DNA from: Streptomyces sp. ALI-76-A
Lineage (GTDB): Bacteria; Actinomycetota; Actinomycetes; Streptomycetales; Streptomycetaceae
Length of the DNA stretch: 64,000 nucleotides
Reading direction: 5' to 3'
Assembly (NCBI RefSeq): GCF_030287445.1
Contig: NZ_JASVWB010000002.1
Coordinates: 2,914,001 to 2,978,000 of the forward strand
Shown one piece after another: positions 41,032-64,000 of the stretch. The notes below the pieces were generated by a model. It had not been told where the DNA came from. It worked only from the letters and a program-made list of their open reading frames with translations, and made no database searches. The translations under genes were made by a program, and so were the position numbers. Positions within the stretch are counted from its first letter, which is position 1. Every line of letters starts with the position of its first letter.

Positions 41032-41847
41032 TCACGCGGCGAACATGTCGAGCACCCGGCGGCCCGGTCCGCGCTGCGGGTGTTCGAGCAGCAGGTCCCC
41101 GCCGAGGATGGCCCGCTGGAGCCGCTGGAGCCGGGGGGAGGGGTCCAGGCCCAGGTCCTCCACCAGACGGTGGCGCAGCTTGGTGAAGGCCGCCAGCGCC
41201 TCGGAGGGGCGGCCGGAGCGGTAGAGCGCGATCATGTGCTGGGCGTGCAGACCCTCGTGCAGGGGCTGACGGGCCGTCAGAACGATCAGCTCCGTGAGGA
41301 GTTCGGCGTGCCGGCCGAGGGACAGTTCGGCGTCGATACGGCGTTCCAGCACCCCGAGCCGGCTCTCCTCCAGGCGTACCCGCTCGATCTCCAGTACGGC
41401 GCCGCAGCGGATGTCGGCCAGCGCCGGGCCGCGCCACAGGTCGAGCGCCTCGCCGTACACCTTCGCGGCGGCCTCGTCCTCGCCGGTGTCGAAGAGACGC
41501 TGGCCCTCCTTGGCGAGGCGGTCGTACTCCAGGACGTCCACGCAGCCCGTGGGCATGCTGAGGCAGTAACCGCCGTGGCGGTAGACCAGGATGTCCTTGG
41601 CGTTGCAGTGGCCGCGGACGGAGGCGTCGATCAGGCGGCGCAGCCGCAGGATGTAGGTCTGGAGAGTGGTGGACCCGGTGCGCGGAGGATCGTAGCCCCA
41701 GAGCTCCTCCATGAGCGTCGACACGGGAACCACTCGGTTGGCGTGCAGGGCCAGCAGGGCCAGGATCTGGCGCATCTTGGCTGCGGACGGCAGGACCGGG
41801 GCGCCGTCCTTGTCCGCGTTGAGCGGCCCCAGCAGGGTGATATCCAT
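41032..41847 (-). CDS. SARP family transcriptional activator
   Basis: A 271-residue stand-alone SARP. Residues 1-95 form the OmpR-type winged helix (TLMEELWGYDPPRTGSTTLQTYILRLRRLID), and 96-250 the BTAD (LDLWRGPALADI, LEIERVRLEESRLGVLERRIDAELSLGRHAELL). It ends after a short basic tail. SARPs are cluster-situated activators of secondary metabolism; this one borders the RiPP/lipid cluster with a divergent two-component system, and is therefore the probable pathway activator. No TTA codon was seen. Confidence 0.95.
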   Translation of the reverse strand: MDITLLGPLNADKDGAPVLPSAAKMRQILALLALHANRVVPVSTLMEELWGYDPPRTGSTTLQTYILRLRRLIDASVRGHCNAKDILVYRHGGYCLSMPTGCVDVLEYDRLAKEGQRLFDTGEDEAAAKVYGEALDLWRGPALADIRCGAVLEIERVRLEESRLGVLERRIDAELSLGRHAELLTELIVLTARQPLHEGLHAQHMIALYRSGRPSEALAAFTKLRHRLVEDLGLDPSPRLQRLQRAILGGDLLLEHPQRGPGRRVLDMFAA

Positions 41848-41895
41848 CTGGTCCCCAGGTGGCTAGGAAGGGACGTACGAGGCTTCGGTGCCCCC

Positions 41896-41911
41896 GTACT
41901 TTGCGAAGTAC
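41896..41911. promoter_or_regulatory. Palindrome in the SARP / response regulator divergent promoter
   Basis: GTACTT-TGCG-AAGTAC is a perfect 6+4+6 inverted repeat, 49 bases upstream of the SARP ATG. It could be an operator for an unidentified regulator. The 269-bp region from 41848 to 42116 otherwise contains no supported gene. Confidence 0.45.
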
Positions 41912-42116
41912 ATCGACGGTCCCACGCGGGGGACACCGGCCGACAGTGCAGGGGTCCCCGGTCGGCGGTGACCGTGTCAGGGGTCGGGGTGTGAAGGATT
42001 CACGGCGCGTTCGGGCCGGGAGGGCGGGCGAGTCGGCCCGGATGCGGTGACCGTTCGAATACCATGCGTGCGGATGCGTGCGCGGCCTCTTGGCCGTCCG
42101 ACGGGGGAGGTCTGGC

Positions 42117-42725
42117 TTGATCCGCATCGTGATCGCCGAGGACATGCACATGGTGCGCGGTGCCCTGGTGGCGCTGCTGGAGATGGAACCCGATCTGAAG
42201 GTGGTCGCCCAGTTCGATTCCGGGGACCGGCTGGTGCCCACCGCGCTGGAGCTGCGGCCGGACGTCGCGATCGTGGACATCGACCTGCCCGGGCTCGACG
42301 GGCTCAGCGCGGCCGACCAGTTGCGCACGGCGGTGCCGACCTGCCGGGTGCTGATCCTGACGAGCCTCGGCCGGCCGGGTACGTTCCGGCGGGCCATGGC
42401 GGCGAAAGTGTCCGGATTTCTGCTGAAGGACGCCCCGCCGGACCAACTGGCCGACGCGGTACGCAAGGTGGCGGCGGGGGGCCGGGTGATCGACCCCCAA
42501 CTGGCGCTGGCCGCTTGGGAGGTGGAGGAGAACCCGCTGACCCGGCGGGAGGTCGAGGTGATGAGACTGGCCGCCGACGGAGCGGAGGCGATGGAGATCG
42601 CGACCCGCCTCTTCCTCTCCATCGGTACCGTGCGCAACTACCTGACCAGCGCGGTCACCAAGCTCAACGCCCGCAACCGGGTGGACGCGATCAGGATCGC
42701 CCAGGACAACGGGTGGCTGACGTGA
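42117..42725 (+). CDS. NarL/LuxR family response regulator (TTG start)
   Basis: A 202-residue response regulator. The receiver has acidic residues E8-D9, phospho-acceptor D54 in AIVDIDLPGLDG, and Lys in LLKDAPP. The C-terminal LuxR HTH (LTRREVEVMRLAADG, IATRLFLSIGTVRNYLTSAVTKL) is complete. TTG at 42117 is the start because GGGGGAGG lies 6 bases upstream and the receiver strand begins at once. It converges on the histidine kinase gene across 149 bases of GACCGCC-type repeats. The pair should be the environmental input for the adjacent cluster. Confidence 0.93.
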   Translation: MIRIVIAEDMHMVRGALVALLEMEPDLKVVAQFDSGDRLVPTALELRPDVAIVDIDLPGLDGLSAADQLRTAVPTCRVLILTSLGRPGTFRRAMAAKVSGFLLKDAPPDQLADAVRKVAAGGRVIDPQLALAAWEVEENPLTRREVEVMRLAADGAEAMEIATRLFLSIGTVRNYLTSAVTKLNARNRVDAIRIAQDNGWLT

Positions 42726-42874: not shown

Positions 42875-44056
42875 TCAGGACGCGGACTGGTTCACCTGCG
42901 CGGCCGGGGTGCGGGGGACCTCCGCCACCAGGCGGAACCAGCCCTCGGCGTCGACGCCCGCGGTGAGCCGGCCGCCGATCTCCTCCACACGCGTGCGGAG
43001 GTTGCCCAGGCCGCTGCCGCCGTCCTGGGAGCCGGTGCGGCGGGTCTCCTCGGCGCCGTCGTTGGACAGGACCAGGCGGACCAGGGCGCCGTCGGGGCCG
43101 GTCGCCGCACGGGCCTCGATGACACAGTGCTGGGCCTTGCTGTGCCGCAGGACGTTGGTGACGCCCTCGCGGATCACCGTGGCCAGCACCGTCCCCGCCA
43201 GCGCGGCCACCGGGCCGCAGTCCAGGTCGATCCGGGCCTCGATCTCGGCCGCGCCGAGCACGTCCTCCGCGGAGGCGGCCTCGGCGTCCAGGGACATCTC
43301 GCGGTAGCCGCGGGCCACCGAGCGCACGTCGGCGAGGGCCTGCCGGGATATCTGCAGGATGGCGACGAGTTCCTCGCGGGCCCGCTCGGGCCGGGTCGCC
43401 ACCAGGCGGAACGTCAGCTCGCTCTTGAGCGTGATGGCGGACAGCCCGAAGCCCAGCAGGTCGTGCAGGTCCCGGGCGAACCGCAGCCGCTCCCGCGCCA
43501 CCGCCATCTCCGCCAGCTCCTCGCGCGCCCGGTGCACTTCGGCCACCAGGTTGGACAACCGGGTGAGGCCGTAGACGATGAGACCGGTGAGCACGGTGGA
43601 CACGACGAGGTAGGAGGAGTCCACCCAGCCGATGCCCTCCAGGACCGCGGCCAGCCCGGTCACCGCCACGACCGCGCCGAACGCCACCCAGCAGGCCGGT
43701 GCCGCGATGATCAGCAGGCACGATCCTGCAAGGAATCCGCCCATGCCGCCCCAGGTCACCCCGAAGAACAGCATGGGGACGTACGTCAGCACGACCTGGG
43801 CGAGCAGCGTCCAGACGCCGTAGCGCTCCCGGAACCGCTCGGTGCCCGGATAGCTGTGCACGGTCTGGATGGCGAACAGCGCGACGCTGGAGACGATGCA
43901 GCCCACCAGCAACAAGGGTCCCGGATCACTGCCGATCACGTTGAGCACGGCGATGAGGACGAACCCGCACAGCACCATCAGGACGATGGCGAAGGCCAGT
44001 TGTGGAGGGAGAGTGTCACGCTGCTGTCTGTCGGGACGCAAGAATCCGCGCGGCAT
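42875..44056 (-). CDS. Sensor histidine kinase (HisKA_3 / NarX type)
   Basis: A 393-residue kinase. About five or six membrane helices occupy residues 20-165 without a large extracellular loop, a coiled stretch leads to HisKA_3 with phospho-His198 in ARDLHDLLGFG, and an HATPase domain ends the protein (NVLRHSKAQ, DGGSGLGNLRTRVEEIGG). ATG at 44056 lies 7 bases after GGGGGAG; a GTG at 44062 is the alternative. It is convergent with its likely cognate regulator, an unusual arrangement, since the two are normally in one operon. Confidence 0.93.
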   Translation of the reverse strand: MPRGFLRPDRQQRDTLPPQLAFAIVLMVLCGFVLIAVLNVIGSDPGPLLLVGCIVSSVALFAIQTVHSYPGTERFRERYGVWTLLAQVVLTYVPMLFFGVTWGGMGGFLAGSCLLIIAAPACWVAFGAVVAVTGLAAVLEGIGWVDSSYLVVSTVLTGLIVYGLTRLSNLVAEVHRAREELAEMAVARERLRFARDLHDLLGFGLSAITLKSELTFRLVATRPERAREELVAILQISRQALADVRSVARGYREMSLDAEAASAEDVLGAAEIEARIDLDCGPVAALAGTVLATVIREGVTNVLRHSKAQHCVIEARAATGPDGALVRLVLSNDGAEETRRTGSQDGGSGLGNLRTRVEEIGGRLTAGVDAEGWFRLVAEVPRTPAAQVNQSAS

Positions 44057-44163: not shown

Positions 44164-45702
44164 TCACCGCACGGCCGAACGCTCCGGCCAGTCGGCGCCG
44201 TTGGCCGGCAGCCGGTCGCCGAGGTGGTGCGCACGGCAGCGCTCCCGCTCGGCGGGCGGCGAACCGATGACGAAGGAGCCCACCGGGGACTCGCTGCGCC
44301 AGTCCAGCCCCAGCGCCCCGGCGCCCACCGTGATGTCCTCGCTGCACACCGCGCAGCCGGCCAGTCCCATCGCCGACCCCACCAGATAGAACGTCTGGAT
44401 CAGCGCCCCCACGTGCTTGAGCACCAGCGCGTACGCCAGCCCGCTGTACTTCCACGACAGCCGCTGGAAACGCGAGGTCAGGGTGATCAGCACGGGCGGC
44501 GGCCCGGACAGCGCGGCGGCCGCCATGGCACCCGCGGACAGTTCGCCCGCCGCCGCCGGATCCTCGTTGACCAGCACCAGGCAGTGGTCCCGGGGGTCGT
44601 AGTAGTGGATGCCGGCGGGCAGTTCGGGACAGTCCCGGACGGTGAGGTAGAGCTCCAGGTCGTAGGCGGCGCCGCCGCTCGGGTACGGACGGTCGCTGGC
44701 CGGGTAGGCGGTCTCGCCCTCGCCGGCCGTGCCGGTCGAGCGGACCCGGGCCGTCCGGTAGAGGAACTCGCCGAGGGTGCGCAGGCTCAGACCGGACGCG
44801 CCGTACTCGCGCACCGAACGCCGTCCCTCCAGGACACTGGTGAACGACGGGTCCCGGCCCAGGAGTTCGTCCAGTTCGGGGCGTGGCAGCCGGACGACCG
44901 GGCCGCGCGGCGGGGACTTGACGGCGGGCTGCGGTTTGACGTGCGCGGCGTGCGCGAAGGTCGCGCCGTAGTCGCCGTCGTCGCGGCCCATGACGGAACG
45001 GGTGTGGAAGAGCATGTCGTGGGCGGACCACGTGCGCAGCGCGGGGTCCTGGTCCTCGTCGAAGTCCCCGTCGGAGTTCTGTGCCACCAGCACCATGCCG
45101 GTGCCGATGAGGTAGCCGAGGATCTCCCGCACCACCGCCCCGGCCAGCGGGATGCCGTCGCCCGCCTTGGCCGCGGAGACGGGCCGGCCGAGGGCCGCGA
45201 CCACCCACTGGGCCTCGGGCCGGTGCAGCAGCACCCGGTGCAGCGACAGCGGCGACTCCAGCTGGAACAGGTCGCCGTCGCGGCGCAGCACCGCGAACCG
45301 GGACAGCTTCAACGGGATGTTCTCCGGCGGGGGTTCGGGGGCGAAGCGGGCGGCGTGCGCGAGCGGGACGGCGGACAGCAGGACCTGCCCGCTGTCCGCG
45401 AACGCGATCGACCGCACGACCAGGTCCTGGAGCCGCAGCAGCGCGCGCTGCCAGGACCCCCGGGTGCCGTCGGCGTCGCCCGGGGTGACGTTGTCCAGGC
45501 TGACCGGCCCGAGGCTCATCCGGCGCAGGGTCTCCACGAGGCCCGGTTCGGGATGGCGTACCCGCAGGTCCGACCAGCGGCCGTGGAGCTCGACCGCGTC
45601 GCCGTCCTCGGCCGTTTCGACGCGGACGTCCTCACGCAGGGACCACAGCGTGGTGATCGCCTCCGGATGGTCGTGGTCGTCGATGCGGGCTGGCTGCAAC
45701 AC
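44164..45702 (-). CDS. SagB/ThcOx-type azoline dehydrogenase
   Basis: A 512-residue protein with an uncharacterised N-terminal half and a C-terminal FMN-dependent nitroreductase-like domain of the SagB/McbC group (VLEGRRSVREYGASGLSLRTLGEFLYRT, YPSGGAAYDLELYL, ALIQTFYLVGSAMGLAGC). In azol(in)e RiPPs this enzyme oxidises azolines to azoles. The two-domain, 500-residue form is typical of TOMM dehydrogenases. GTG at 45702 is the start, with AGGAG six bases before it. It lies 29 bases behind the YcaO cyclodehydratase in the same operon, which fixes its role. Confidence 0.92.
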   Translation of the reverse strand: MLQPARIDDHDHPEAITTLWSLREDVRVETAEDGDAVELHGRWSDLRVRHPEPGLVETLRRMSLGPVSLDNVTPGDADGTRGSWQRALLRLQDLVVRSIAFADSGQVLLSAVPLAHAARFAPEPPPENIPLKLSRFAVLRRDGDLFQLESPLSLHRVLLHRPEAQWVVAALGRPVSAAKAGDGIPLAGAVVREILGYLIGTGMVLVAQNSDGDFDEDQDPALRTWSAHDMLFHTRSVMGRDDGDYGATFAHAAHVKPQPAVKSPPRGPVVRLPRPELDELLGRDPSFTSVLEGRRSVREYGASGLSLRTLGEFLYRTARVRSTGTAGEGETAYPASDRPYPSGGAAYDLELYLTVRDCPELPAGIHYYDPRDHCLVLVNEDPAAAGELSAGAMAAAALSGPPPVLITLTSRFQRLSWKYSGLAYALVLKHVGALIQTFYLVGSAMGLAGCAVCSEDITVGAGALGLDWRSESPVGSFVIGSPPAERERCRAHHLGDRLPANGADWPERSAVR

Positions 45703-45731
45703 GGTCGGCTCCTGGGGGTGAGGGGGGAGGG

Positions 45732-48011
45732 TCACACGAACAGCGGCACGGGATTCAGCTCGGTGCGGGCGAGGGGCTCCGGCAGCCGGCCCAGGGCGAC
45801 GGGGACGTCGTAGAGCCTGCCGGGGGCGAACCGGGTCCAGAACGAGCGCAGTCCGGGGACCAGGACCTTGACGACGGGCAGGCCGACGTCGGGGCGGGTC
45901 TGGTCGAGGACGAGCAGGTCCAGTCCGCGGGCGCGGACCGCCTCGGTGACGGTGGTGAGGTCGTCCCGCAGATCGGCGCCCGTGGGGAAGGCGAAGTCGG
46001 CGAGGGTGCTGGGGACCTCCGGGGAGGGCCGGAGGTAGGGCTGGTTGCGGGTGGTCGCGCCCCGCCACCAGTGCAGCAGTTCGGGGTCGGTCAGGGTGTA
46101 GCCGCTGCCGTCGTCCCGGGCGTCGACCGCCGCCGGGAGCAGCTGGTTGACCTCGGTCAGGGCGCGGCGCAGGGCGATCCTCGCGTCGAGGTGGGCGCCG
46201 AAGCCGAAGACGATGTCCTCGGCCTCCTTGTCGGTACGGCGGGACAGCGCGGCGAAGACCGGGATGCCGAAGTCGGAGGTGAGGTCGAGCGCCCACACCT
46301 CGCGGCGCATCTCCCGGTGCACCTCGATCAGCTCCTCGGTCCACAGGTCGGCGCCGGTGCGCAGGTCGAGGGCGGGCCGGGGGGTGCGGTTGTACCACCA
46401 CAGGGCCACCGCGTCGCGTTCGACGAGTTCCAGGAAGCCCTGGAGGACGGCGTCCTCCAGGCTGCTTCCGGCGGCGTTGCCGTTGGAGTCGGCGTGCGCG
46501 AACCGGCGGCCCGCGACGGGGGCCCGCTGTTCGGCGGCGGTGGAGAAGTACAGCAGGGCGGTGGGCAGCAGCCGGTGGCGCCGTCCGGTGAGCGACCAGA
46601 CCGGCGTCCAGTCGACCTCGGCGTCCTCGTCGAAGCGTTCGGGGACGTGGTGGAACCCGGAGTGGGCGGCGTTCCACGTCTCACGGCCGGCGTACTGCTC
46701 CTCGGAGTACAGCTGGCAGGTGTCCGGGTGCACGGCGAGGCCGTCGAGGTCGCGGTAGCGGGCCCGGATCCGGTACTCGTCGCCGTGCAGACAGCCGGAG
46801 TAGCGCTCGACCGCCTCGCACAGCGCGCTGACCTCGGCGTCCAGGGCGGTGACCCCCTTGCCGCCGTTGACCTGGCGCAGGCCGCCCAGCAGCCCGGTGA
46901 GGCCGGTGGCGCCGGAGACCGGGTTCGGGCCGGAGCTGAAGCTGTTGAGGAACGCCGGCCCGCCCTCGACCCGGGTGATGTCGGCGACCACACCGGTGAC
47001 CGGGCTGACGAGGTGGCCGTAGGTGTCCAGCATCTGCTGCGCCGAGCGGGAGCGGTGGCCTCCACCGCCGCCCGGTGCCTTGGGCCGGGACCGCGGGACG
47101 ACGGGCACCAGGGCGCGTTCGGCGCTGCGGCCGGGGTCGCCGCAGTCGGGGCACTGCGGGCGGCGGCGCACCACGTGGTGGCGGGAGCCCAGAGTCAGGG
47201 TGTCGAAGGTGAGCACCCGGTCCTGGCCGGAGTGGTGGCCGGCCAGCCATTTGGCGGCCTCGATCGCCGCGAGGTGCAGACCTGCGCCCAGGGTGCAGGG
47301 GATGCCGGCGGCGGGGCCGGGCACCGGGCCGGTGCGGCCGAGGGCGGCGCCTACCTGGGACTCGACGCCGCGGTGCAGGCGTACCGGATGGGCCAGGCAG
47401 GACCAGCAGGCTCCGGCGCCGGGCCGGAAGACGGGGCCGACCCAGATGGTGGCGCCGCTGGGCTTGGCCAGCAGCCACGGGCGGCCGCTCGCCCGGTGTT
47501 CGGCGTCGATCGCGGCGAGTTCGGGTGCGAGGTAGTCGTCGCAGACGACGACGGTGAGGGCGGTGCCGGGCGCGGGCTCCGTCGTGACGGCGAGTCCCGA
47601 GGCGCTGAGCGCGCGGACGGCGTGGGCGGTGTCGAAGTCGCCGACGGTGCGCAGTTGCACGCCGGTGGACGCGGTTCTCAGCCGGGTCCGGCGTCCTTCG
47701 AGACCGGCGAGTTCCCAGTAGGCCTCGGCGCTGTGGTTGGCCGGCTCGGAGCAGTGGTGCTCCCGGTACTCGATGAAGCCGGCGTCGGCGAGCTGGGCGA
47801 GAAGGGCGGTGAGCCGCTCGGCGGGCAGCGGTTCCGGGCTGTCCCGCAGCAGTGCGGGCAGGTCACGGCTGCCGTCGAGGAGCGGGACGACCGCTTCCAG
47901 ATGGGGTGCCCTGAGGGCGGTGATTCCGTGTTCGGAAATCAGGTAGGTCGCGTCGTCCGGCACCACCTCCGCACGGAGGTGGCGCCGGAACCCTATCAAC
48001 GCTCTGTTCAT
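45732..48011 (-). CDS. TOMM cyclodehydratase (RRE/E1-like fused to YcaO)
   Basis: A 759-residue fusion of the leader-binding C-type and catalytic D-type proteins. Residues 1-85 form a winged RRE (RiPP recognition element), about 120-300 an E1-like domain with CWSC (202-205) and CPDC (287-290) as a zinc tetrathiolate, and 340-759 the YcaO ATPase with EVSALCEAVERYSG and DAVLQGFLELVERDAVALWW. It uses ATP to turn Cys, Ser or Thr of a bound precursor into azolines. The C-terminus ends NPVPLFV, a weakened form of the proline-rich tail of D-proteins. The start ATG overlaps the stop of the precursor gene. Confidence 0.95.
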   Translation of the reverse strand: MNRALIGFRRHLRAEVVPDDATYLISEHGITALRAPHLEAVVPLLDGSRDLPALLRDSPEPLPAERLTALLAQLADAGFIEYREHHCSEPANHSAEAYWELAGLEGRRTRLRTASTGVQLRTVGDFDTAHAVRALSASGLAVTTEPAPGTALTVVVCDDYLAPELAAIDAEHRASGRPWLLAKPSGATIWVGPVFRPGAGACWSCLAHPVRLHRGVESQVGAALGRTGPVPGPAAGIPCTLGAGLHLAAIEAAKWLAGHHSGQDRVLTFDTLTLGSRHHVVRRRPQCPDCGDPGRSAERALVPVVPRSRPKAPGGGGGHRSRSAQQMLDTYGHLVSPVTGVVADITRVEGGPAFLNSFSSGPNPVSGATGLTGLLGGLRQVNGGKGVTALDAEVSALCEAVERYSGCLHGDEYRIRARYRDLDGLAVHPDTCQLYSEEQYAGRETWNAAHSGFHHVPERFDEDAEVDWTPVWSLTGRRHRLLPTALLYFSTAAEQRAPVAGRRFAHADSNGNAAGSSLEDAVLQGFLELVERDAVALWWYNRTPRPALDLRTGADLWTEELIEVHREMRREVWALDLTSDFGIPVFAALSRRTDKEAEDIVFGFGAHLDARIALRRALTEVNQLLPAAVDARDDGSGYTLTDPELLHWWRGATTRNQPYLRPSPEVPSTLADFAFPTGADLRDDLTTVTEAVRARGLDLLVLDQTRPDVGLPVVKVLVPGLRSFWTRFAPGRLYDVPVALGRLPEPLARTELNPVPLFV

Positions 48012-48196
48012 GAGGCGGAGTTGCTCGCATAGCAGAGGGTGAACAGGGCGGGCCTGGAGTGCGGTGCCGTCAGCACCTCGATGACCAGGTCCGTGGACTC
48101 GTCCTGCCCGCCGTACGCCAGGTACGTCTCCTGGTGCTGCTGCGGGGTGCTCGTGGAGCGGCTTTCCTGCGTGACGACCTGACTGATGTGCGTCAT
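48008..48196 (-). CDS. Candidate azol(in)e RiPP precursor peptide
   Basis: A 62-residue peptide whose stop codon overlaps the YcaO start as ATGA and whose ATG is preceded by AGGAG at 7 bases. The N-terminal part is hydrophilic (Q, T, S, E rich) and contains YLAYGGQDESTDLVIEVL, a leader-like amphipathic segment. The C-terminal stretch ALFTLCYASNSAS has Thr53, Cys55, Ser58, Ser60 and Ser62 as cyclodehydration candidates, with one cysteine only. No known cleavage motif is obvious, though the boundary could fall near TAPHSRPA. Its position as first gene of the TOMM operon makes it the best precursor candidate. I do not recognise the family. Confidence 0.82.
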   Translation of the reverse strand: MTHISQVVTQESRSTSTPQQHQETYLAYGGQDESTDLVIEVLTAPHSRPALFTLCYASNSAS

Positions 48197-48330
48197 GGGG
48201 AAGCTCCTGCTTCGAAGGGGTGGTGCCCGGTGCGGACGAGACTCAGCATGCGGGGCGCACGGCACCCGGGCACAGTGCCGGCCTCACCGGCCCCCTGTGA
48301 GGAATTCACACGTCCTCTCGAGCGGTGTTC

Positions 48331-48347
48331 GGTCCACCGGTGGTCCA
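48331..48347 (+). promoter_or_regulatory. GGTCCA direct repeats with 11-bp spacing
   Basis: GGTCCA at 48331 and 48342 are exactly 11 bases apart, in the divergent 226-bp promoter between the precursor and the SCP2 gene. The spacing suits a SARP site, but only two copies are seen and they partly form a palindrome (CCACCGGTGG). Confidence 0.35.
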
Positions 48348-48422
48348 TCCGACTGCCAGGGGTTTTCGGCATGGTCGGACCACATGTTCCAGCAACCAGG
48401 ACCAGCGAAGGAGGGAACACCC

Positions 48423-52370: not shown

Positions 52371-52393
52371 GTCTCCTCGTTCCTCGGGTCGGG

Positions 52394-55351: not shown

Positions 55352-55358
55352 GGGAAGG

Positions 55359-58247
55359 TCACCTCGTGACGGTGGGAGGGGTGGACGGGGCGGCGGAGCT
55401 GTCGGGCTGGAGCAGGCGCAGGGTCAGCTGGGCCTTGCGCGCGAGGTCGACCCACGACGCGTAGCTGAACCCGAGCCGGTATCCGCCCGGGGCCGGGGAG
55501 TCGATGCGGTCGAGCGGGACCAGCTCGCCGCGCGCCAACTGCTGCAGCTGGGCGAGCAGGTGCTCGTAGGTGGCGGCGGTGAGGAAGCCGGTGCCGGGGT
55601 CGTCGGGGGAGGCGGCGGGCTGCGGTGCCTGCTCCCGCTCTGCGGGTACGGCGGGCTCGTCGTCGTCCACGACCGAGTCGTCCCGGCGGACGCGCAGCGA
55701 GTAGCCCCAGCCGCTCTCGATCTGCGGGAGTTTGACGCGGACCAGGTCCAGCCGGGCGGCCTGCTCGCTCTCCTGCTCGGCGCGCATCCGGGCGATCACC
55801 TCGACCGAGCGGATCGCGCCGTCGGCGCCGTAGAAGAACGGGACGCCGGGGCGGGCCACCGGGATGTCGGCGTCGGCGCAGCCCACGCCGTCGATGACGG
55901 CGAGGACCTTCTCGCCCTCGGTGACCTTGTCGAGCGGCTTGACCACCATGAAGGCGGCGCCCTCGGCGGGCGTCAGGCCGTCGACGGAGTGCCCGGCCTC
56001 CTTCAGCCGGCGCTCGAACAGACGGGTGAACTCGGGGGTGAGGTTGGCGTGCACGCCGCCGACCAGGGCGACGTCGCACTCCCCCTGTTCCAGGTTGCGC
56101 TTGGCGAGCCCGAGGGCGGTGCCGAAGGAGCACAGGTCGTCGTCGATGACCACGCCGGGCCCGCGCAGGTCGAAGATGTTCTGGATGCGGCCCGCGGTGA
56201 TGTTGTCCATGTAGCCGGGCAGCGCGTTCTCCCGGGTGAGCGGGACGTAGCGGTGCACCTCGCGGGTGTAGCTCTCGACCAGCGCCGTGCGGGTGTCCTC
56301 GTCGAGCGCCCGGTACTCCGGCACGTCCTCCAGGGCCCGCTCGAACTCCACCAGCCGGATACGGAAGTTGCGGGTCAGGCCCGACTCCAGTCCGCAGGTC
56401 GCGCCGACGAACACGCCCGCGTTGACCCGGTCGGTCATGGCGGCCCCGTACTCCTCCAGGGCCTGCCCGGCCGCCATCACCGACAGCAGCTGCGCCCGGT
56501 CGAGGTCCTCCAGCACGTTGGGCGGGATGCGGTAGGTCTTCCAGGGGAAGTCCAGGTCGGTGACGACGCCGCCGCGCCAGGTGCCCTCGGGGTCGTAGAT
56601 CTCGGCGGCGTCCGGGTGCCAGCGGTCCTCGGGGAAGCCGGTGACGCCGGCGTCCGGCGCCCGCTCGGCGACCAGGCCCGCGGTGTCCCGGGAGAACGGG
56701 GCCACGCAGCCGATGCCGAGCACCGCGAGCGGGGCGTTGGCCGTGCTGCGGCTGCTCTCGGTGTGGCCCTGCTGCTCCAGCGCGGCGTCCGCGTGGTGCA
56801 CGGGGTCGTACTGCTCCACGATGACGCTGGTGTTGACGCCGCCGAACCCGAACGCGTTGGTCAGCGCCCGGCGCGGCCGGCACTCGTCCGGCGCCTGCCA
56901 CGGCTCGGCGGCGACCGGCACCCGGAACGGCGAACCGTCCAGCCGCATCGCCTCCGGCGCCCGGGTGAAGGCGTGGGTGGGCGGCACCGTCTCGTGCTGG
57001 AAGGAGAGCAGGATCTTCAGCAGGTTGGCCATGCCGGCGGCCGAGAAGGTGTGCCCGATCTGGGCCTTGACCGACCCGAGCCGGATGGAGCCGGGCGCCG
57101 CCCCGCTGTCCTCGTACAGCTGCTGGAGGGAGCTGACCTCGACCAGGTCGCCGGTGGAGGTGGCGGTGGCGTGGGTCTCGATGTAGTCGAGCTCGCCCGG
57201 TGCCGCGTCGGCGAGTTCGAGGGCGCGGCGCATCGCGGCGACCTGGCCGCGTGAGGACGGCGCGTAGATCGCCTTGCCCTTGCCGTCGCAGCGGGTGGCG
57301 ACGCCGCGGATCACGCCGGCGATGGTGTCGCCGTCGCGCACCGCGTCGCTGAGCCGCTTGAGCAGGACGGTGCCGGAGCCCTCGCCGTTGATCAGGCCGC
57401 TGGCGCCCTCGTCGAGCGGGGTGGAGCGGGTGGCCGACAGACCGCCGATCTTGGCGAAGCAGACGTTGCCGGTGATGTTCATGTTGCCCTGCACACCGGT
57501 CGCCAGGACCATGTCGTGGCTGCCGTCCTGGAGGTACTTGACGGCGGTGTCGATCACGGTGAGGCCGGAGGCGCAGGCCGCGTCGCCGATCGCCGCCGGG
57601 CCGGGCAGTCCGATCACCCGGGCGACCGCCTTGGCGACGCTGACCTGGAAGACGTGGGCGGCGGGCCCGGAGTCGGCGTCGTAGAGCCGGTTCTTGACGG
57701 CGGCCGGGAAGCCACTCTCCAGGGCCGCCCGCTGCCCGGGCTCCAGGTCCTGGAAGGCCTCGCTGTTGCGCAGGTGGTGCAGGACCTCGGTGGCCCGGAA
57801 GCTCAGCGAGGACTCCATCACCTGTTCGTCGCCCAGCATGTTCCCGACGAACAGCGCGGTGTCGGTGGTGGACAGCCGGCTCGGGCTGTACCCGGACATA
57901 CGCAGGGTCTGCAGGACGGTGTCGAGCACCATCAGCTGGGTGCGGTTGAGCTCGGACACGGCCTCCTGGCCGATCCGGGTCAGCTCCTGGAGGCCGGTGG
58001 GCCCGGCGTAGTCGTCCAGGAAGCCGCCCCAGCGGCAGTACGTCTTGTCGACGACGCCCTTGTCCTCGTCGTGGTAGTCGCGCCAGTCCCAGCGGTGCTC
58101 GGGCGGTGAGCCGATGCCGATGCGGCCGCCCAGGATGTTCTGCCAGAACGTGTCGGCGTCGTACGAGTCGGGTGGGAAGACGCAGCCGTATCCCACGACG
58201 GCGATCGGGTCGAACCCTTCGAAGCCCTCTGTCTCAGTCCCAGGCAC
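55359..58247 (-). CDS. Pfa/Hgl-type ketosynthase with chain-length-factor-like second KS
   Basis: A 962-residue protein. KS1 (residues 10-480) is complete: Cys225 in GDAACASGL, His359 in THATATSTGD and His399 in KAQIGHTFSAAG. The second KS-like domain (505-830) keeps the fold and Cys706 (IDDDLCSFGTAL) but has no recognisable second and third His motifs, so it may be a chain-length-factor-like subunit. A C-terminal tail of 130 residues is Pro/Ala-rich then helical. This KS-CLF order matches the first half of PfaC in polyunsaturated fatty acid synthases, without its dehydratases. It is transcribed after the PPTase with a 14-base overlap. Confidence 0.9.
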   Translation of the reverse strand: MPGTETEGFEGFDPIAVVGYGCVFPPDSYDADTFWQNILGGRIGIGSPPEHRWDWRDYHDEDKGVVDKTYCRWGGFLDDYAGPTGLQELTRIGQEAVSELNRTQLMVLDTVLQTLRMSGYSPSRLSTTDTALFVGNMLGDEQVMESSLSFRATEVLHHLRNSEAFQDLEPGQRAALESGFPAAVKNRLYDADSGPAAHVFQVSVAKAVARVIGLPGPAAIGDAACASGLTVIDTAVKYLQDGSHDMVLATGVQGNMNITGNVCFAKIGGLSATRSTPLDEGASGLINGEGSGTVLLKRLSDAVRDGDTIAGVIRGVATRCDGKGKAIYAPSSRGQVAAMRRALELADAAPGELDYIETHATATSTGDLVEVSSLQQLYEDSGAAPGSIRLGSVKAQIGHTFSAAGMANLLKILLSFQHETVPPTHAFTRAPEAMRLDGSPFRVPVAAEPWQAPDECRPRRALTNAFGFGGVNTSVIVEQYDPVHHADAALEQQGHTESSRSTANAPLAVLGIGCVAPFSRDTAGLVAERAPDAGVTGFPEDRWHPDAAEIYDPEGTWRGGVVTDLDFPWKTYRIPPNVLEDLDRAQLLSVMAAGQALEEYGAAMTDRVNAGVFVGATCGLESGLTRNFRIRLVEFERALEDVPEYRALDEDTRTALVESYTREVHRYVPLTRENALPGYMDNITAGRIQNIFDLRGPGVVIDDDLCSFGTALGLAKRNLEQGECDVALVGGVHANLTPEFTRLFERRLKEAGHSVDGLTPAEGAAFMVVKPLDKVTEGEKVLAVIDGVGCADADIPVARPGVPFFYGADGAIRSVEVIARMRAEQESEQAARLDLVRVKLPQIESGWGYSLRVRRDDSVVDDDEPAVPAEREQAPQPAASPDDPGTGFLTAATYEHLLAQLQQLARGELVPLDRIDSPAPGGYRLGFSYASWVDLARKAQLTLRLLQPDSSAAPSTPPTVTR

Positions 58248-59073
58248 GGAGCTGCCCTTTCTGCTGGTGGCCGTCCGGCGGCCGGGAGGCCACGGAGGCG
58301 ATGGCGAAGATGTGGTCGGTGACCCGGCCGTAGCGGACGGCGACCCGGTGCCCCGGATCGGCCCCCGCGGGGAGGGTGATGTCGAACACTCCGGCGGCGG
58401 TGTCGGCCGCGCGCAGCCGGGCGGTTCCCCAGCCGTACGCGAAGCCGATGCCGTACGCCTTGAGCAGTGCTTCCTTGACCACCCACAGCGCGGTCCCGCG
58501 GTGGCCGGAGTCGAAGGCCTGGAACGCGGTCTCGGCCAGAGCGACCTCGGCGTCGGTGAAGACGGTGCGCCGCAGCGCGGGGCTGAAGCTGCGCAGCGGC
58601 TCCACGTCGACGCCGACCCGGCCGCCGTGGGCCAGGGCGCACACCGCGAACCGGAGGGTGTGCGCGAGCGAGATGTCGGTGACGTGCCGGCCGACGGATC
58701 CGGCCAGCCCGGGGACGCGGGAGGACAGTTCGGGTTTGCCCGCCCGGCCGCCCGGCTTGTTGCCGAGGACGGCGAGTTCGCTGGGCGCGACGGGCAGTCC
58801 GGCCCGTTCCAGGGCCAGGCACACCAGGCGCTTGGCCGCGACCCGCCCGGCCAGCCACTCCACCCGCCGTTTCGGTACGGCGATGTGGGTGAGGACCGGG
58901 AGTTCGGCCGGGGCCAGGTAGTGCGCCCGGTAGGCCGCGGGGGCCGCCGCGTAGTCCCCGCGCACCTGGTCGATGGGGAGCCACTCGATGGTCACGGCGC
59001 CGCCCCCGGGCAGCGGGGTTCCGCTGCCCGGCAGGGCGCTCTCAGTCCAGGAGACGTGTATCGCCCTCATCAC
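58234..59073 (-). CDS. Sfp-type 4'-phosphopantetheinyl transferase
   Basis: A 279-residue PPTase that activates acyl carrier proteins from CoA. VGVDVEPLRS is the Mg-binding GxDxE-type motif and WVVKEALLKAYGIG the W-x-x-K-E-x-x-x-K motif. Its place between KS-CLF and the ACP-bearing synthase shows which carriers it serves. ATG at 59073 overlaps the synthase stop by 32 bases and follows GGTGGGG; a GTG at 58995 (after a hairpin) would give a 253-residue protein of more usual size. Confidence 0.9.
   Translation of the reverse strand: MMRAIHVSWTESALPGSGTPLPGGGAVTIEWLPIDQVRGDYAAAPAAYRAHYLAPAELPVLTHIAVPKRRVEWLAGRVAAKRLVCLALERAGLPVAPSELAVLGNKPGGRAGKPELSSRVPGLAGSVGRHVTDISLAHTLRFAVCALAHGGRVGVDVEPLRSFSPALRRTVFTDAEVALAETAFQAFDSGHRGTALWVVKEALLKAYGIGFAYGWGTARLRAADTAAGVFDITLPAGADPGHRVAVRYGRVTDHIFAIASVASRPPDGHQQKGQLRAWD
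59006..59031. terminator. Perfect hairpin at the synthase/PPTase boundary
   Basis: CCGGGCAGCGG and CCGCTGCCCGG pair over 11 bp around GGTT, 11 bases after the synthase stop. It may attenuate or process the operon mRNA, or mask a start site. Confidence 0.6.
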
Positions 59074-62000
59074 GCCCCACCTGTGTCACGACGAGATCCT
59101 GGATCTCGCAGAGGGTGATGCCCGCGGTGTCGGCGATCCTGGTGCTGATCCGCAGGTCTCCGGGTTTTCCTCCCTGGTCCGGTCCGACGGGTACGACGGT
59201 CGAGTCGGTGTGCACGGTCTCGCCCGGCAGCGGGACGCGGTGGAAGCGCATCGCCGCGATGGACACCGGCACGACATGGCTGCCGAGCTGGTGGTACGCC
59301 CACAGCAGGGTGGAGCGCCAGGCGTTGTCGATCACGATGGGCAGGGTCCGCAGCCGCGGTGTCGCGGTGGTGGAGAACAGTCCGCGGCCGGCGTCGGCCA
59401 CGATCTCGCTCACCATCCGCCCCTCCTCGATGTCCCCGACGAACCCGATCCGCCGCACCTGGCGGAACCGGGGGCCGAAGGTGATCTGCCGGGCGGCCCG
59501 CTCGTAGAACCGGTCGATGTCCAGCTCGGTGGACTTCGCCACGAGTTCGGCGAGTTCCGGGTCGGCGGCGGGCGGGCTTCCCGGCCGGCGGGCGAAGACG
59601 TACGTGCCGCGCGAGTGCACCCGGTCGGTCTCCAGGACCCGACCGTCGGCGGTGACCAGGTCGGAGCGGATCTCCGCGCGGACGCGGCGGGTCCCGTCCG
59701 CGAGCTCCTCGTCGGCCTCGGCCTCGAAGCGCAGGTCGAGCGGGAAGTTCGGCAGGTGCTTGACGAACTTCAGGAACTCGACGTTCTCCGCCGCGACGAC
59801 CGTGTGCTCCGGCACGAGCAGCCCGGACGCCTGCACCTGGCCCTCGATGTGCAGCACCCCGGGGAAGGTGCCCGCGCCCTTGACCCGGTGGTCGTCGAGG
59901 TAGCGGTCGGCGCGCGGATCGAGCCGTCTGACGGCCCGCACCCGGGTGTCGGTGACCTCCAGGACCCGGTCGAGCAGGGGCAGCGCGATCCGGTCCCGGA
60001 CGGCGCCGTCGGGCCCGACCGGGACGGCGACACCGGTGCGCGTGCCGTCCATCGACGCGTCCTGCCCGCCGTAGCTGTTCGTGCCGATCTCGCCGAAGAC
60101 CAGCACCTCGGGGTCGTCGCCGCCCTGGAAGACCTCCCGGGCGAAGTGCTGCACGCCCTCCTCGACGCCCAGGTAGCGCAGCCCGCGCACCTCCTCCTGG
60201 ATCCGCCGGACGGCTTCGGTGGCGGCCATGCCGACGTCGGCCCAGCCGGTCCAGCACAGGGTGAAGACGCGGGTGTCCGGGTTTCTGCGGGCGAGCAGCG
60301 CGGAGAGCTTGGAGACGAGGTCGGCGCCGGCGGTGTAGTCGACCTGGCCGTCCATGCCGAAGCGGCCGAGGAAGGAGCCGAAGAAGCCGAAGAACTTCAG
60401 GTCGTCGTGCTTGACGGCGTGCCAGAGGTGATGGGAGCCGTCGGCCTTCACCCGGACAACGTGCCGGGCGTGGTCCAGGGACTTCTTCGGCACGGTGGCG
60501 ACCGACTCCAGACCGGCGGCGTGCACGACGCCGTCGATCCGCCCGTACCGCTGCCGTACGGCGTCGACGACCGCGGTGACCTGACCGCCGTCGGAGACGT
60601 CACAGACCTCGTAGACGGACAGCGGGTTGACGGCCCGCAGTTCCTCGATGTTCCGGTACAGCTCGCGGGAGTTCGCGAGGGCCGCGAACTGCTTCTTGGC
60701 CTTGACCGGGGTGATGGCCGGGTTCTTCTTCTTGGCCTGCCGGAACCAGCCCTTGCCGAGCGCGGCGAAGGCCTCGTCGTCCAGCGCCATCCAGTCCTCG
60801 GTGCCCTCGGCGGGGCGGGTGCGGCCGAGGATGACGACCCGCACGCCCTCCAGCCGGGCGAGTTCCTTGGCGCACTCGTAGGTGATGCCGCGCGAGCCTC
60901 CGGAGAAGACGACGACGCTGCCCGGGTCGAGACGGAGCGGCTGCTGCCGTTCGTCGGTGGCGATCTCGTGCGGGACCACCTGGACGATCTTGCGCAGTCC
61001 GCGCAGGTAGCCGACCTCGACGGTGCGTTCCGCGTGGGTCGTGATCTCCGCGAGGAGGGCCTCGGCGGCACCGGCCGCGTCGCCCTCGGTGAAGTCGACG
61101 ACCTTGACCCGGGTGTCCGCGAGTTCGAGGTCGAGGCTCTTGGCGAAGCCCGCGGTGAGGCCGCCCAGCGGATCCATGGCGCCGTCGGACTCCAGGCCGA
61201 ACACCCCGCCGACCGCGGTGGCCGCGAAGTAGCCGCCGTCCCGGCCGGCCCGGGTGAGGTCGGCGAAGTACGCCTTGGCGGCGAGGAGGTTGACCGTGAA
61301 GTGCTGGTCGGACGCGGCGCTCCAGTCGGCGGCGGGCCGGTCGAAGGAGGTGGTCGCGGCGACCGGGTCGGGGCCGCTGCCGTAGGGATGGAGATTGACG
61401 ACGACCTGGACCTCCCCGTCACCACGGGCCGTTGCCAGGGCCCGGGCCAGGGAGTCGGGGTCGGTGAAGTCGGCGCGGGCGGTGGGCCAGTCGTCCGGGA
61501 CGGCCGCCTGGTCCGGTGCGACGACGTAGGGCCGGGCGCCGTGCCCGGTGAGGCGCGGGAGCACCTCACGGGCGAGGGCCGTGTCCTGTCCGGTGATCAC
61601 CACGACCGCCTTGCCGTCCAGGGAGAACGGCCGCGCGCCGGGGTGGTCGAGCGGGCTCTCGACCGCGAGGGGGACGTACCGTCCGGCGATGCGGTCGAGC
61701 GTGCGCTCCAGGACAGGCGGCAGCACCGGCCGGGCGGGTGCCGCCTCGCGTATGTGACTGTCGTCGGAGCCGTCGCCGCCACCCGTGTCCGAGGTGCCGC
61801 CGCCGCGCGGGCTGCGTCCGGTGGCGGCCTGGAGGCCGGCGACGAACTCGGCGATGCGGCTGAGGGTGTTGAGGGACGCCGAGTCGATGTCCTCCACCAC
61901 CGGCAGCCCCAGCACCTCCCGCACCTCACCGAGGATCTCCGCCTGCTTCACCGAGTCGATCCCCAGATCCGCCTCCAGATCCAGATCCGCCTCCAGCAGA

Positions 62001-63919
62001 TCCGCGGGATACCCCGTCTTGGCCTCCGCCACCTCCCACACCACCCGGTCCGCCTCGGCCCGGTCCTCGGCCGTGGCCTCGGCGGGCTGTTCGGGAGCGG
62101 ATACCTCGGAGGCAGGCGCCTCAGGGGCGGGCGTCTCCGGTGCGGCGGCCCGCGCGGGCCGGGCCGACGCCTGGAGATCGGCGACGAACTCGGCGATCCG
62201 GCTGAGGGTGTTGAGGGACGCCGAGTCGATGTCCTCCACCACCGGCAGCCCCAGCACCTCCCGCACCTCACCGAGGATCTCCGCCTGCTTCACCGAGTCG
62301 ATCCCCAGATCCGCCTCCAGATCCAGATCCGCCTCCAACAGGTCCGCGGGATACCCCGTCTTGGCCTCCGCCACCTCCCACACCACCCGGTCCGCCTCGG
62401 CCCGGTCCTCGGCCGTGGCCTCGGCGGGCTGCGCGGGCACCGGGGCCGTGACGGGCCCGGGGCCCGCGGCGGTCTCCCGTGCCGTCGCGGCAGGGGCGGC
62501 CGTGCCGCGTGAGGCGTCGACGAGCTGGTCGAGCAGGTGGCCGAGCGGGGCGTCCGCCTCGGTCGGGACGGTCGTGTCCGCGAGGCCCAGATGGGCGGCG
62601 AGCGCGGCCGCCAGGTCCTCGCGGACCCGGGTGCTCAGACCGAGGCCCGCGCCCATCAGCTGGGCCGGGTCCAGGAGCCGTACCGGGTAACCGGTGTAGC
62701 GGGCGGCGGCCTTGAGGAGGTCCTCGCGCAGTTCGGCGGTGGTCGGGGCGGCGTTCTCCCCGGCCGGTTCCCGCGGGGCGCTGTGCTGCTCCGGCTCGCT
62801 GCGGGGCAGGCCGTGCACCTCCGCGAAGGCCGTGAAGCGGCGCATGCTCTCCACCGCGCCCAGCGACTGGATGTTGGTCGGGGTGACCAGCGCCTCCTGG
62901 TCGGAGTCGGCGAGGATCCGCTCGGTGAGCCCGGACAGGATCGACTTGGGGCCGACCTCGACGAAGCTGTTGACGCCGTCCGCGTGCATCCGTCCGATCA
63001 GCTGCTGGAAGCTGAACGGCGTGACCAGCTGGCGGGCGAGCAGCAGGGGCAGGTCCGCCACGTCCTGCTCGGTGTAGTAGTCGCCGATCACCGTGGAGAG
63101 CACGGGGATCCTGGGGGCGTGCCAGTCGAGCGCGGCGAGCGTGCGCTCCAGGTGCGGGACGGCCTCCTCCAGCAGGTCGGAGTGGAAGCCGTGGGAGACC
63201 CTGAGCCGGGTGGCCTTGATCCCGCGCTCGCGGCACAGTGCGGCGGCCTTGTCGATGGCGTCCGAGTCGCCGGACAGGACCGTCTGGTCGGGCGAGTTGA
63301 CGAGGCTCTGCACGAGGTAGCCGTTGCCGCCCCCGCGCAGCAACAGCAGCAGCCGGGACAGCTGTTCGCGGCTGCGGTCGCTGTCCGTCTGCAGGCTCAG
63401 CATGCCGCCGCGGCGGGCCTCGGGAATGACCTTCACGGCCACGCCCCGCCCGTACACCGCGCGCACGCCGTCCTCCAGGGAGAGCGCGCCGGCCGCGACC
63501 AGGGCGCTGATCTCGCCCAGGCTGTGCCCGATGTGCGTCTCGGCGGTGATGCCCTGGCTCTCCAGCAGCCGGTGCACGACCATGCTGCCCGCGAAGATCG
63601 CGGGCTGCATGACCACCGGGTCCTGGAGCGCCTTGACCGGGTCACTGCCGCCGGAGCTGAACATGCGGCTGGTCAGGGTGTGCCCGGCCAGCTCGCGGTA
63701 GGTCGCGTCGATCCGCTCGAACGTCTCGGCGGCCACCGGGTTCTCGGCGGCGAGGTCGGCGAACATGTCCGGGTACTGCGCCCCGTGGCCGGGGAACAGG
63801 AAGGCGCTGCGCAGCGCGACGCCGGTGGTGCCGAGGTAGACGCCCTGGGCCTGAAGGGCTCGCCGGCTGGCGGCGGCGATCTTCTCCCCGCTGCGGACTT
63901 CGGTCTGTGTGATGGTCAC
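59042..63919 (-). CDS. Multidomain PUFA/secondary-lipid-type synthase: AT-ACP*-ACP-ACP-KR-DH
   Basis: A 1625-residue iterative synthase subunit. The acyltransferase (35-370) has FPGHGAQ and GHSLGE. Residues 395-470 look like an ACP whose attachment site reads GLSTRVRE instead of GIDSVKQ. Two intact, identical ACPs follow, with pantetheine serines at about 542 and 656. The KR region begins near 740, its Rossmann GGSRGIT near 1007. The C-terminal 300 residues contain a hotdog dehydratase with DHRVKGAGTFPG (HxxxGxxxxP). The domain order recalls PfaA or HglE, but the N-terminal KS is missing, so the KS must come from the separate KS-CLF. GTG at 63919 is the start. No enoyl reductase is seen in the window. 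Confidence 0.92.
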   Translation of the reverse strand: MTITQTEVRSGEKIAAASRRALQAQGVYLGTTGVALRSAFLFPGHGAQYPDMFADLAAENPVAAETFERIDATYRELAGHTLTSRMFSSGGSDPVKALQDPVVMQPAIFAGSMVVHRLLESQGITAETHIGHSLGEISALVAAGALSLEDGVRAVYGRGVAVKVIPEARRGGMLSLQTDSDRSREQLSRLLLLLRGGGNGYLVQSLVNSPDQTVLSGDSDAIDKAAALCRERGIKATRLRVSHGFHSDLLEEAVPHLERTLAALDWHAPRIPVLSTVIGDYYTEQDVADLPLLLARQLVTPFSFQQLIGRMHADGVNSFVEVGPKSILSGLTERILADSDQEALVTPTNIQSLGAVESMRRFTAFAEVHGLPRSEPEQHSAPREPAGENAAPTTAELREDLLKAAARYTGYPVRLLDPAQLMGAGLGLSTRVREDLAAALAAHLGLADTTVPTEADAPLGHLLDQLVDASRGTAAPAATARETAAGPGPVTAPVPAQPAEATAEDRAEADRVVWEVAEAKTGYPADLLEADLDLEADLGIDSVKQAEILGEVREVLGLPVVEDIDSASLNTLSRIAEFVADLQASARPARAAAPETPAPEAPASEVSAPEQPAEATAEDRAEADRVVWEVAEAKTGYPADLLEADLDLEADLGIDSVKQAEILGEVREVLGLPVVEDIDSASLNTLSRIAEFVAGLQAATGRSPRGGGTSDTGGGDGSDDSHIREAAPARPVLPPVLERTLDRIAGRYVPLAVESPLDHPGARPFSLDGKAVVVITGQDTALAREVLPRLTGHGARPYVVAPDQAAVPDDWPTARADFTDPDSLARALATARGDGEVQVVVNLHPYGSGPDPVAATTSFDRPAADWSAASDQHFTVNLLAAKAYFADLTRAGRDGGYFAATAVGGVFGLESDGAMDPLGGLTAGFAKSLDLELADTRVKVVDFTEGDAAGAAEALLAEITTHAERTVEVGYLRGLRKIVQVVPHEIATDERQQPLRLDPGSVVVFSGGSRGITYECAKELARLEGVRVVILGRTRPAEGTEDWMALDDEAFAALGKGWFRQAKKKNPAITPVKAKKQFAALANSRELYRNIEELRAVNPLSVYEVCDVSDGGQVTAVVDAVRQRYGRIDGVVHAAGLESVATVPKKSLDHARHVVRVKADGSHHLWHAVKHDDLKFFGFFGSFLGRFGMDGQVDYTAGADLVSKLSALLARRNPDTRVFTLCWTGWADVGMAATEAVRRIQEEVRGLRYLGVEEGVQHFAREVFQGGDDPEVLVFGEIGTNSYGGQDASMDGTRTGVAVPVGPDGAVRDRIALPLLDRVLEVTDTRVRAVRRLDPRADRYLDDHRVKGAGTFPGVLHIEGQVQASGLLVPEHTVVAAENVEFLKFVKHLPNFPLDLRFEAEADEELADGTRRVRAEIRSDLVTADGRVLETDRVHSRGTYVFARRPGSPPAADPELAELVAKSTELDIDRFYERAARQITFGPRFRQVRRIGFVGDIEEGRMVSEIVADAGRGLFSTTATPRLRTLPIVIDNAWRSTLLWAYHQLGSHVVPVSIAAMRFHRVPLPGETVHTDSTVVPVGPDQGGKPGDLRISTRIADTAGITLCEIQDLVVTQVGRDEGDTRLLD
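61838..62431. repeat. Two 252-bp nearly identical ACP-coding repeats
   Basis: 61838-62089 and 62180-62431 differ at about three positions, all silent, with start-to-start distance 342 bp. They encode the tandem ACPs and imply recent duplication or gene conversion. Confidence 0.9.
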
Positions 63920-63933
63920 TTCTGTATGTCCCC

Positions 63934-64000
63934 TCAGGCCAGTACGTTGTGCCGCCGGGCGGCGTCCGCCAGGAGTTCGACGGCGCGGTCCACGTCCTCG
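63934..64000 (-). CDS. C-terminal end of an upstream cluster gene (rest outside window)
   Basis: Only the last 22 residues are visible, ending DRAVELLADAARRHNVLA before a TGA at 63936-63934, 14 bases upstream of the synthase start. This is too little to name a family; the helix resembles the ends of many enzymes including aminotransferases. It shows that the operon continues to the right. Confidence 0.6.
   Translation of the reverse strand, partial: EDVDRAVELLADAARRHNVLA

Follow-up and report, generated by a model that had tools for sequence, protein, structure and literature searches.

Here, we analysed a 64,000-nucleotide stretch of the genome of Streptomyces sp. ALI-76-A (the window; bases 2914001-2978000 of contig 2; genome size 9.69 Mb), in which the genes for a putative azol(in)e peptide of the thiazole/oxazole-modified microcin (TOMM) type adjoin those for a Pfa-like lipid synthase. 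Based on a comparative genomics approach, we consider that this peptide is, on balance, probably an autoinducing signal that switches on the neighbouring lipid/polyketide pathway and not a structural part of its product. In the mechanism that we propose, the precursor would be cyclised by a LynD/TruD-like YcaO enzyme, oxidised by SagB and trimmed by a protease, yielding a short azol(in)e peptide. A membrane histidine kinase, the gene of which lies just downstream, would sense this peptide and phosphorylate a LuxR-type regulator, which would bind a palindrome whose computed sites lie before the TOMM operon, resulting in autoinduction, and before the gene of a Streptomyces antibiotic regulatory protein (SARP). 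The SARP would then turn on the neighbouring pathway, here the Pfa-like synthase, the acyl chain of which may be converted to an amino-ketone lipid by an alpha-oxoamine synthase and acylated by a PlsC-type acyltransferase.

The gene identities were taken from Pfam and NCBIfam profile scans, which covered 23 genes in all. The genes and sites of the proposed circuit are given below; G253 and G617 are two other genomes that carry the same cluster.

41032..41847, reverse strand: SARP-type activator (BTAD and Trans_reg_C domains)
41990..42004: palindrome TGTGAAGGATTCACG, between the SARP and response regulator genes (score 18.3; same place in G253 and G617; matrix seed)
42078..42725, forward strand: NarL/LuxR-type response regulator (PF00072 and PF00196)
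42875..43978, reverse strand: HisKA_3 histidine kinase (PF07730), downstream of SagB on the same strand
44164..45735, reverse strand: SagB/ThcOx-type azoline oxidase (TIGR03605, 158 bits against a cut-off of 78.4; PF22767)
45732..48011, reverse strand: fused E1-like/YcaO heterocyclase of the LynD/TruD type (TIGR03604, 292.3 against a cut-off of 219.25; TIGR03882, 145.6 against 36.9)
48008..48196, reverse strand: 62-aa precursor with the leader motif LVIEVL and the core ...ALFTLCYASNSAS
48296..48310: palindrome TGTGAGGAATTCACA, between the precursor and SCP2 genes (score 20.8; also in G253 and G617; the other matrix seed)
48330..48349: candidate SARP-type direct repeat before the SCP2 gene (heptamers 11 bp apart; weak)

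A TOMM operon with a precursor, YcaO and SagB had been proposed in a first-pass annotation of this DNA, and it was confirmed by the NCBIfam models and by the conservation of the 62-aa open reading frame (ORF), which is 87% identical in G253 and 56% identical in Streptomyces sp. AcH 505 and G617. The operon has the parts that define such systems, i.e., a YcaO cyclodehydratase with its leader-binding partner, a SagB-type dehydrogenase and an adjoining precursor with a putative heterocyclisable core. Two features of an autoinducing circuit were also found: the kinase, the N-terminal half of which is hydrophobic and multi-helix according to its hydropathy, is encoded in the same direction, the regulator gene is near, and a common site, presumably bound by the regulator, precedes both the precursor operon and the activator gene.

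This site, a 15-bp palindrome (YRTGAA-N3-TTCAYR), was found by aligning the promoters of ALI-76-A, G253 and G617 and is common to both intergenic regions. For the window scores, the matrix was seeded with the two window sites and trained on the sites that precede YcaO; the fair figures are the held-out counts. When the matrix was trained on the other half of the loci (threshold 11), a site was present in the 700 bp before YcaO in 35/40 and 32/40 held-out loci (67/80), compared with 14/338 and 11/373 control stretches upstream of other genes (25/711). Sites per gene family were counted with a matrix from all loci, within 250 bp of the start and leaving out genes of less than 150 aa (acyl carrier proteins (ACPs) and most precursors). 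They preceded 36 of the 49 SARP genes, 28 of which diverge from the TOMM operon and have their site in common with it; the separately placed SARP genes had a site of their own in eight of 14 cases versus nine of 760 genes of other kinds outside the TOMM promoter region (Fisher p 2e-11). Short SagB genes were preceded by a site in 13 of 17 cases and long ones in one of 39, while YcaO itself, which the precursor precedes, had one in 4/78. The counts were 1/9 for carboxyltransferases, 3/85 for regulators, 4/73 for kinases and 13/554 for other genes, and no sites were found before the genes for ketosynthases (KS; 0/27), AMP-ligases (0/27), acyltransferases (AT; 0/17), phosphopantetheinyl transferases (PPTases; 0/19), FabH (0/9) or FAD monooxygenases (0/8). 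Because the sites occur at the TOMM operon and the SARP gene and not at the biosynthetic families tested, the former two look like one regulon, and the latter look as though they are not directly part of it.

Within the cluster in the window, the scan detected two good palindromes, and none was found before the oxoamine synthase gene. A scan of the entire ALI-76-A genome with a degenerate palindrome returned 16 sites, two of them within the cluster, versus eight with a reversed control, which shows that this degenerate form lacks specificity by itself. The candidate direct repeat before SCP2 recurs with altered letters in ALI-76-A, G253 and G617, in each of which approximately one such pair is expected by chance, and the search of the same three genomes revealed no conserved SARP-type direct repeats before the oxoamine synthase gene. 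Since this evidence is weak, the step from the SARP to the lipid operon is one that we infer.

The distribution of the TOMM operon suggests that it is a cassette that travels with its regulators. A YcaO scan of 84,980 species genomes yielded 390 relatives, the best 80 loci of which were analysed (13 of them with less than 10 kb of flank on the side where the lipid genes would lie). In the flanks of these 80 loci (tblastn above 45 bits), a kinase was found in 74, the regulator in 74, SagB in 55 and a SARP in 47, while the biosynthetic genes were more varied, with a KS of any type in 21, an ACP in 20 and an AMP-ligase in 28. According to Pfam, the representatives of the flanking families included KS, ACP, cyclase, deoxysugar, FabH and other genes. 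In the 71 loci that had both, the kinase was encoded on the same strand as YcaO/SagB, next or next but one downstream and with nothing opposite in between, in 63 cases. Among 295 Streptomyces genomes, YcaO was present at 83 places in 82 genomes, and a relative of the LuxR-type regulator was located within 12 kb at 77 of the 83; conversely, 57 of the 69 close regulators (at least 66% identity) had YcaO within 12 kb, a pairing that assumes that both searches sampled the same 295 genomes. On a YcaO tree that was built with a quick method from 79 of the 80 loci and the window, four cluster labels required at least 16 changes, and the association with type II polyketide synthases (PKS) required at least 10 on well-supported branches; the labels were assigned from at most 10 kb of flank, so that 'other' may conceal more distant PKS genes. 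This suggests gain and loss of the cassette beside type II PKS. In seven Amycolatopsis loci (L044, L045, L057, L058, L076, L079 and L084), the cassette with its kinase and regulator lies beside a second kinase/regulator pair; CopC/CopD-like genes were found among the family representatives of these loci, and their available flanks had no KS, ACP or AT match.

The relatives' precursors carry an LVIEDL motif, mostly followed by a Cys core. A regular expression for LVIEDL-like motifs accepted a peptide in 51 of the 80 loci and in the window, and, after hand curation, in which L047 was removed (L033 and L049 had been listed with it) and L042, L054 and L087 were kept, 49 of the 52 precursor loci with kinase, regulator and YcaO calls formed the correlation set. 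With the kinase domain, the regulator and the two YcaO halves held constant, the distance between cores correlated with that between kinase sensor regions (r=0.34, p=0.001, n=49), also among the 28 non-redundant loci, in which all YcaO pairs were below 72% identity (r=0.28, p=0.004). In the latter set, the correlations of the core with the kinase domain (-0.08), the YcaO halves (0.03 and 0.11) and the regulator (0.03) were not significant. This covariation is suggestive of the peptide being the ligand of the kinase. Two loci, L060 and L089, have multi-copy repeated cores of the form FTFCAQPGP in one precursor just upstream of YcaO, which is reminiscent of the precursors of cyanobactins. Some precursors with longer leaders (L028, L034, L054, L078 and L086) show an RY..DP..VLAE.G-like pattern, which we presume to resemble nitrile-hydratase-like leaders.

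The same loci bear on two further explanations. One is that the azole peptide is itself an autoinducing antibiotic, as nisin is, and that the SARP co-activates an unrelated lipid pathway, i.e., two products under one switch. The gene layout and the site before the precursor would fit nisin-like induction too, and the core sequences vary strongly among the loci. However, the TOMM operon of the window has no recognised immunity-type gene or dedicated peptide exporter, and the cores are short with one or two Cys in many loci, and we regard this explanation as quite unlikely. The other is that the TOMM genes are passengers of a common regulator pair that senses an unrelated cue and controls both halves. 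The kinase, regulator, SARP and palindrome do occur without TOMM genes; the regular placement of the kinase behind YcaO/SagB and the covariation of its sensor region with the core argue to the contrary, which makes this explanation very unlikely in our view.

The occurrence without TOMM was followed in eight stretches around the regulator (L142-L149), seven of which are from genomes outside the YcaO list, while the genome of L149 has YcaO approximately 57 kb away. The palindrome preceded the SARP gene in four of the eight (L144, L146, L147 and L149) and a short SagB gene in L142, while L143, L145 and L148 had no palindrome above a weak score. L144 is a type II PKS cluster whose KS, chain-length factor (CLF), ACP, SARP, regulator, cyclase and ligase are close kin to those of the TOMM-bearing loci L078, L082, L028 and L086, with a KS identity of 82-89%. 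Its kinase is full-length and its SARP gene is preceded by the palindrome, but no YcaO remnant was found in this locus (best E 5), and its genome, G149, is outside the YcaO list. The TOMM operon thus seems to be dispensable for the product of that cluster type, unless the products differ.

Several observations weigh against the peptide being the switch. The kinase, regulator and SARP persist in these TOMM-less clusters, and there the cue for the kinase has to be a different one. The scan of 23 genes revealed no leader protease. The regulator was missing in 6/80 YcaO loci and the kinase in 6/80, within the available flanks, and 12 of the 69 close regulators had no YcaO within 12 kb, although some of these were on short contigs. 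L027 and L090 carry the palindrome but neither the kinase nor the regulator in their available flanks, where a regulator may act from elsewhere in the genome. No matrix site was found within 250 bp of six of the 14 separate SARP genes and of seven that are divergent to the TOMM operon. In the 49-locus set, the core also gave weak significant values with the kinase domain (0.15) and the catalytic YcaO half (0.12), and with the SARP as a further control (19 loci), the correlation of the core fell to r=0.16 (p=0.075), while that of the whole precursor was 0.23 (p=0.018). Finally, most of the changes on the YcaO tree were between type II PKS and 'other'; without the 48 'other' loci only two changes remained, and hence frequent jumps of the cassette between defined cluster types were not shown.

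The first-pass annotation also held that the TOMM and lipid halves form one cluster, which is supported by the synteny among relatives. A lipid KS-CLF of more than 80% identity was found in ALI-76-A itself, G253 (94%), G617 (82%) and AcH 505 (81%); because the latter two are approximately 99.5% identical in the DNA stretches that were compared, the four carriers represent two lineages. In all four, both halves are collinear and in the same order over a block that corresponds to 38903-67844 in window coordinates. Compared with AcH 505 and G617, the match stops to the left of 38903 (3.4 and 4.8 kb compared, with a further 20 kb for G617) and to the right of 67844 (approximately 9 kb compared). 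In G253, the left flank is collinear with that of ALI-76-A, with most of the window genes at 15609-38470 matching at 71-96%, and the 9 kb of the right flank have no match. Its shared left flank indicates the same site by descent, and G253 therefore adds no independent left end. The acyl-CoA carboxylase is divided over the block, with the beta subunit in its middle and the epsilon subunit at its right end. A chance neighbourhood of two pathways is unlikely, since the gene content and order of the block recur in a second lineage, where the flanks differ. The two halves do adjoin as had been stated, but the cluster is larger than was claimed, extending from 38903 to approximately 3.8 kb beyond the window. 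To the right of the cluster (L009:11371-20000), there are proteins that resemble type I restriction-modification systems by eye, with no match in the 9 kb of G253.

From this arrangement, it had been concluded that the product is a hybrid, i.e., a Pfa-type chain, perhaps an amino ketone, that PlsC or another cluster enzyme joins to the azole peptide. Both halves do occur together in all four genomes with this synthase, none of the genomes found had this lipid cluster without TOMM genes, the precursor and SCP2 genes share a promoter region, and zeamine and fabclavine are precedents for a Pfa-like chain that is joined to a peptide. However, the synteny check that had been set beforehand as a test, whether YcaO always occurs with the KS-CLF, had a negative outcome, and TOMM genes without these lipid genes, a pattern named beforehand as refuting the hybrid, are the common case: the lipid KS-CLF was absent from the available flanks of 79 of the 80 YcaO loci, with L011 as its sole carrier, and YcaO occurs at 83 places in 295 Streptomyces genomes compared with 2/392 genus-sample genomes for the KS-CLF (E 1e-150). 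In the order and class samples, which overlap the genus sample, the KS-CLF of more than 80% identity was found in 2/391 and 1/394 genomes, ALI-76-A itself included. The existence of the kindred L144 cluster type without TOMM, the palindrome that the TOMM operon shares with the SARP gene but with none of the biosynthetic families tested, and the lack of a GNAT acyltransferase among the 23 genes also speak against it. A hybrid product is thus not supported and appears unlikely, less likely than a peptide switch, and the earlier interpretation as a whole is partly supported.

Peptide autoinduction through two-component systems is known from agr and from NisRK of nisin. As in these, the genes for the precursor, maturation enzymes and kinase are in a row on one strand with the palindrome ahead. 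In contrast to their thiolactone and lanthipeptide signals, the peptide here is an azol(in)e; the proposed output is the SARP of a separate metabolite cluster, and the host is an actinomycete. The maturation enzymes resemble those of the cyanobactins: residues 5-757 of the window YcaO match LynD (568.7 bits), nearly its whole length also matches TruD (533 bits), SagB is of the same oxidase type as ThcOx, the core is short and hydrophobic, and repeated cores recur in the relatives L060 and L089. Unlike in the cyanobactins, no PatA/PatG-like subtilisin-like protease/macrocyclase was found among the 23 genes. Lipolanthines, goadvionin and lipoavitides are ribosomally synthesised and post-translationally modified peptides (RiPPs) with an acyl chain, and their RiPP genes, as here, lie beside genes of the fatty-acid/PKS type. 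The cluster differs from these in that neither a GNAT nor avionin-forming enzymes were found among its scanned genes and in that this RiPP half adjoins many other gene sets elsewhere.

In the portions of the literature that our search reached, we found no description of a YcaO-peptide/kinase/SARP circuit, and we do not claim novelty. Somewhat more tentatively than for the window itself, we propose that azol(in)e peptide pheromones may form a class that is widespread in actinomycetes: the short signal would be made by a LynD-like heterocyclase and read by the adjoining kinase, and one 15-bp palindrome would link it to the SARPs of very different antibiotic clusters. More than a quarter of the sampled Streptomyces (82/295) would have such a pheromone, with each core as the address for one cluster. 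If this is true, many silent Streptomyces clusters may be awaiting their cognate peptide, which could be deduced from the DNA and synthesised. For genome mining, a YcaO gene beside a PKS would then be taken to mark a switch for the PKS instead of one part of a hybrid compound.

The remaining genes of the cluster, most of which belong to the lipid half, are as follows.

38903..39352, forward strand: 149-aa ORF of no family, the left border of the block common to AcH 505 and G617 (identity 86% in G253, 72-73% in AcH 505/G617)
39349..40956, forward strand: multicopper oxidase (PF07731, PF07732), kept in G253, AcH 505 and G617
48423..48782, forward strand: SCP2 lipid-carrier domain protein (PF02036)
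48779..50410, forward strand: acyl-CoA carboxylase carboxyltransferase (beta) subunit (PF01039)
50510..50935, forward strand: DUF3291-like protein (PF11695, 24.9 bits against a cut-off of 23.5)
51084..51620, reverse strand: 178-aa protein of no family (identity 86% in G253, 66% in G617)
51624..52373, reverse strand: short-chain dehydrogenase/reductase (SDR; PF00106)
52394..53251, reverse strand: PlsC-type acyltransferase (PF01553; HX4D and EGTR read by eye)
53260..54294, reverse strand: possible degenerate acyltransferase with a TPR-like C-terminus, without an acyltransferase profile match
54434..55351, reverse strand: membrane protein of no Pfam family
55359..58247, reverse strand: Pfa-like KS-CLF (PF00109/PF02801)
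58234..59073, reverse strand: PPTase (PF01648)
59042..63919, reverse strand: iterative synthase with AT-ACP-ACP-ketoreductase (KR)-dehydratase (DH) domains (PF00698, PF00550 in two stretches, PF08659, PF14765, PF21089)
63934-65124 in the window frame (L009:3935-5125): alpha-oxoamine synthase, immediately preceding the AT-ACP gene
within 63934-67844 in the window frame: the genes beyond the window, i.e., the alpha-oxoamine synthase first, then an ECF sigma factor, an MFS exporter and the acyl-CoA carboxylase epsilon subunit

Most of the gene inventory of the first-pass annotation was recovered by Pfam and NCBIfam, i.e., the SCP2 protein, carboxyltransferase, one PlsC, SDR, membrane protein, KS-CLF, PPTase and AT/KR/DH synthase; of the two PlsC-like proteins that it had listed, the second had no acyltransferase match, and of the three ACPs that it had assigned to the synthase, Pfam detected two but not the one marked ACP*. 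The SDR and the possible degenerate acyltransferase have no counterpart in AcH 505 and G617. Scans of the window for tRNAs and against Rfam (gathering threshold) found nothing.

With its KS-CLF, AT-ACPn-KR-DH, own PPTase and nearby PlsC, the lipid half resembles the Pfa, zeamine and fabclavine systems. It differs from them in that the KS-CLF reaches only 311.2 bits against the PfaA model TIGR02813 (cut-off 1010.1), the profile scans of the lipid synthase genes detected no enoylreductase domain, and an alpha-oxoamine synthase adjoins. The latter is 91-98% identical among the relatives, and its nearest solved structures are KBL and serine palmitoyltransferase (307 bits to the solved serine palmitoyltransferases). 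It belongs to the same family as these enzymes but remains below the cut-offs of the NCBIfam models listed, including the serine palmitoyltransferase equivalog (NF047600, 372.6 versus 640), and differs from them in adjoining a dedicated synthase. From these families, the expected reaction is a condensation of an acyl-ACP chain with an amino acid, which would give an amino ketone; this might then be reduced in the SDR-bearing strains and acylated by PlsC. The combination of a Pfa-like synthase and an alpha-oxoamine synthase would represent a rare route (2/392 sampled Streptomyces) to a predicted aminolipid. Five further genomes of the genus (L136, L137, L138, L139 and L140) encode another KS-CLF of approximately 30% identity with an AT nearby, accompanied by a PPTase in three of the five, and these appear to be distant kin of the synthase described here.

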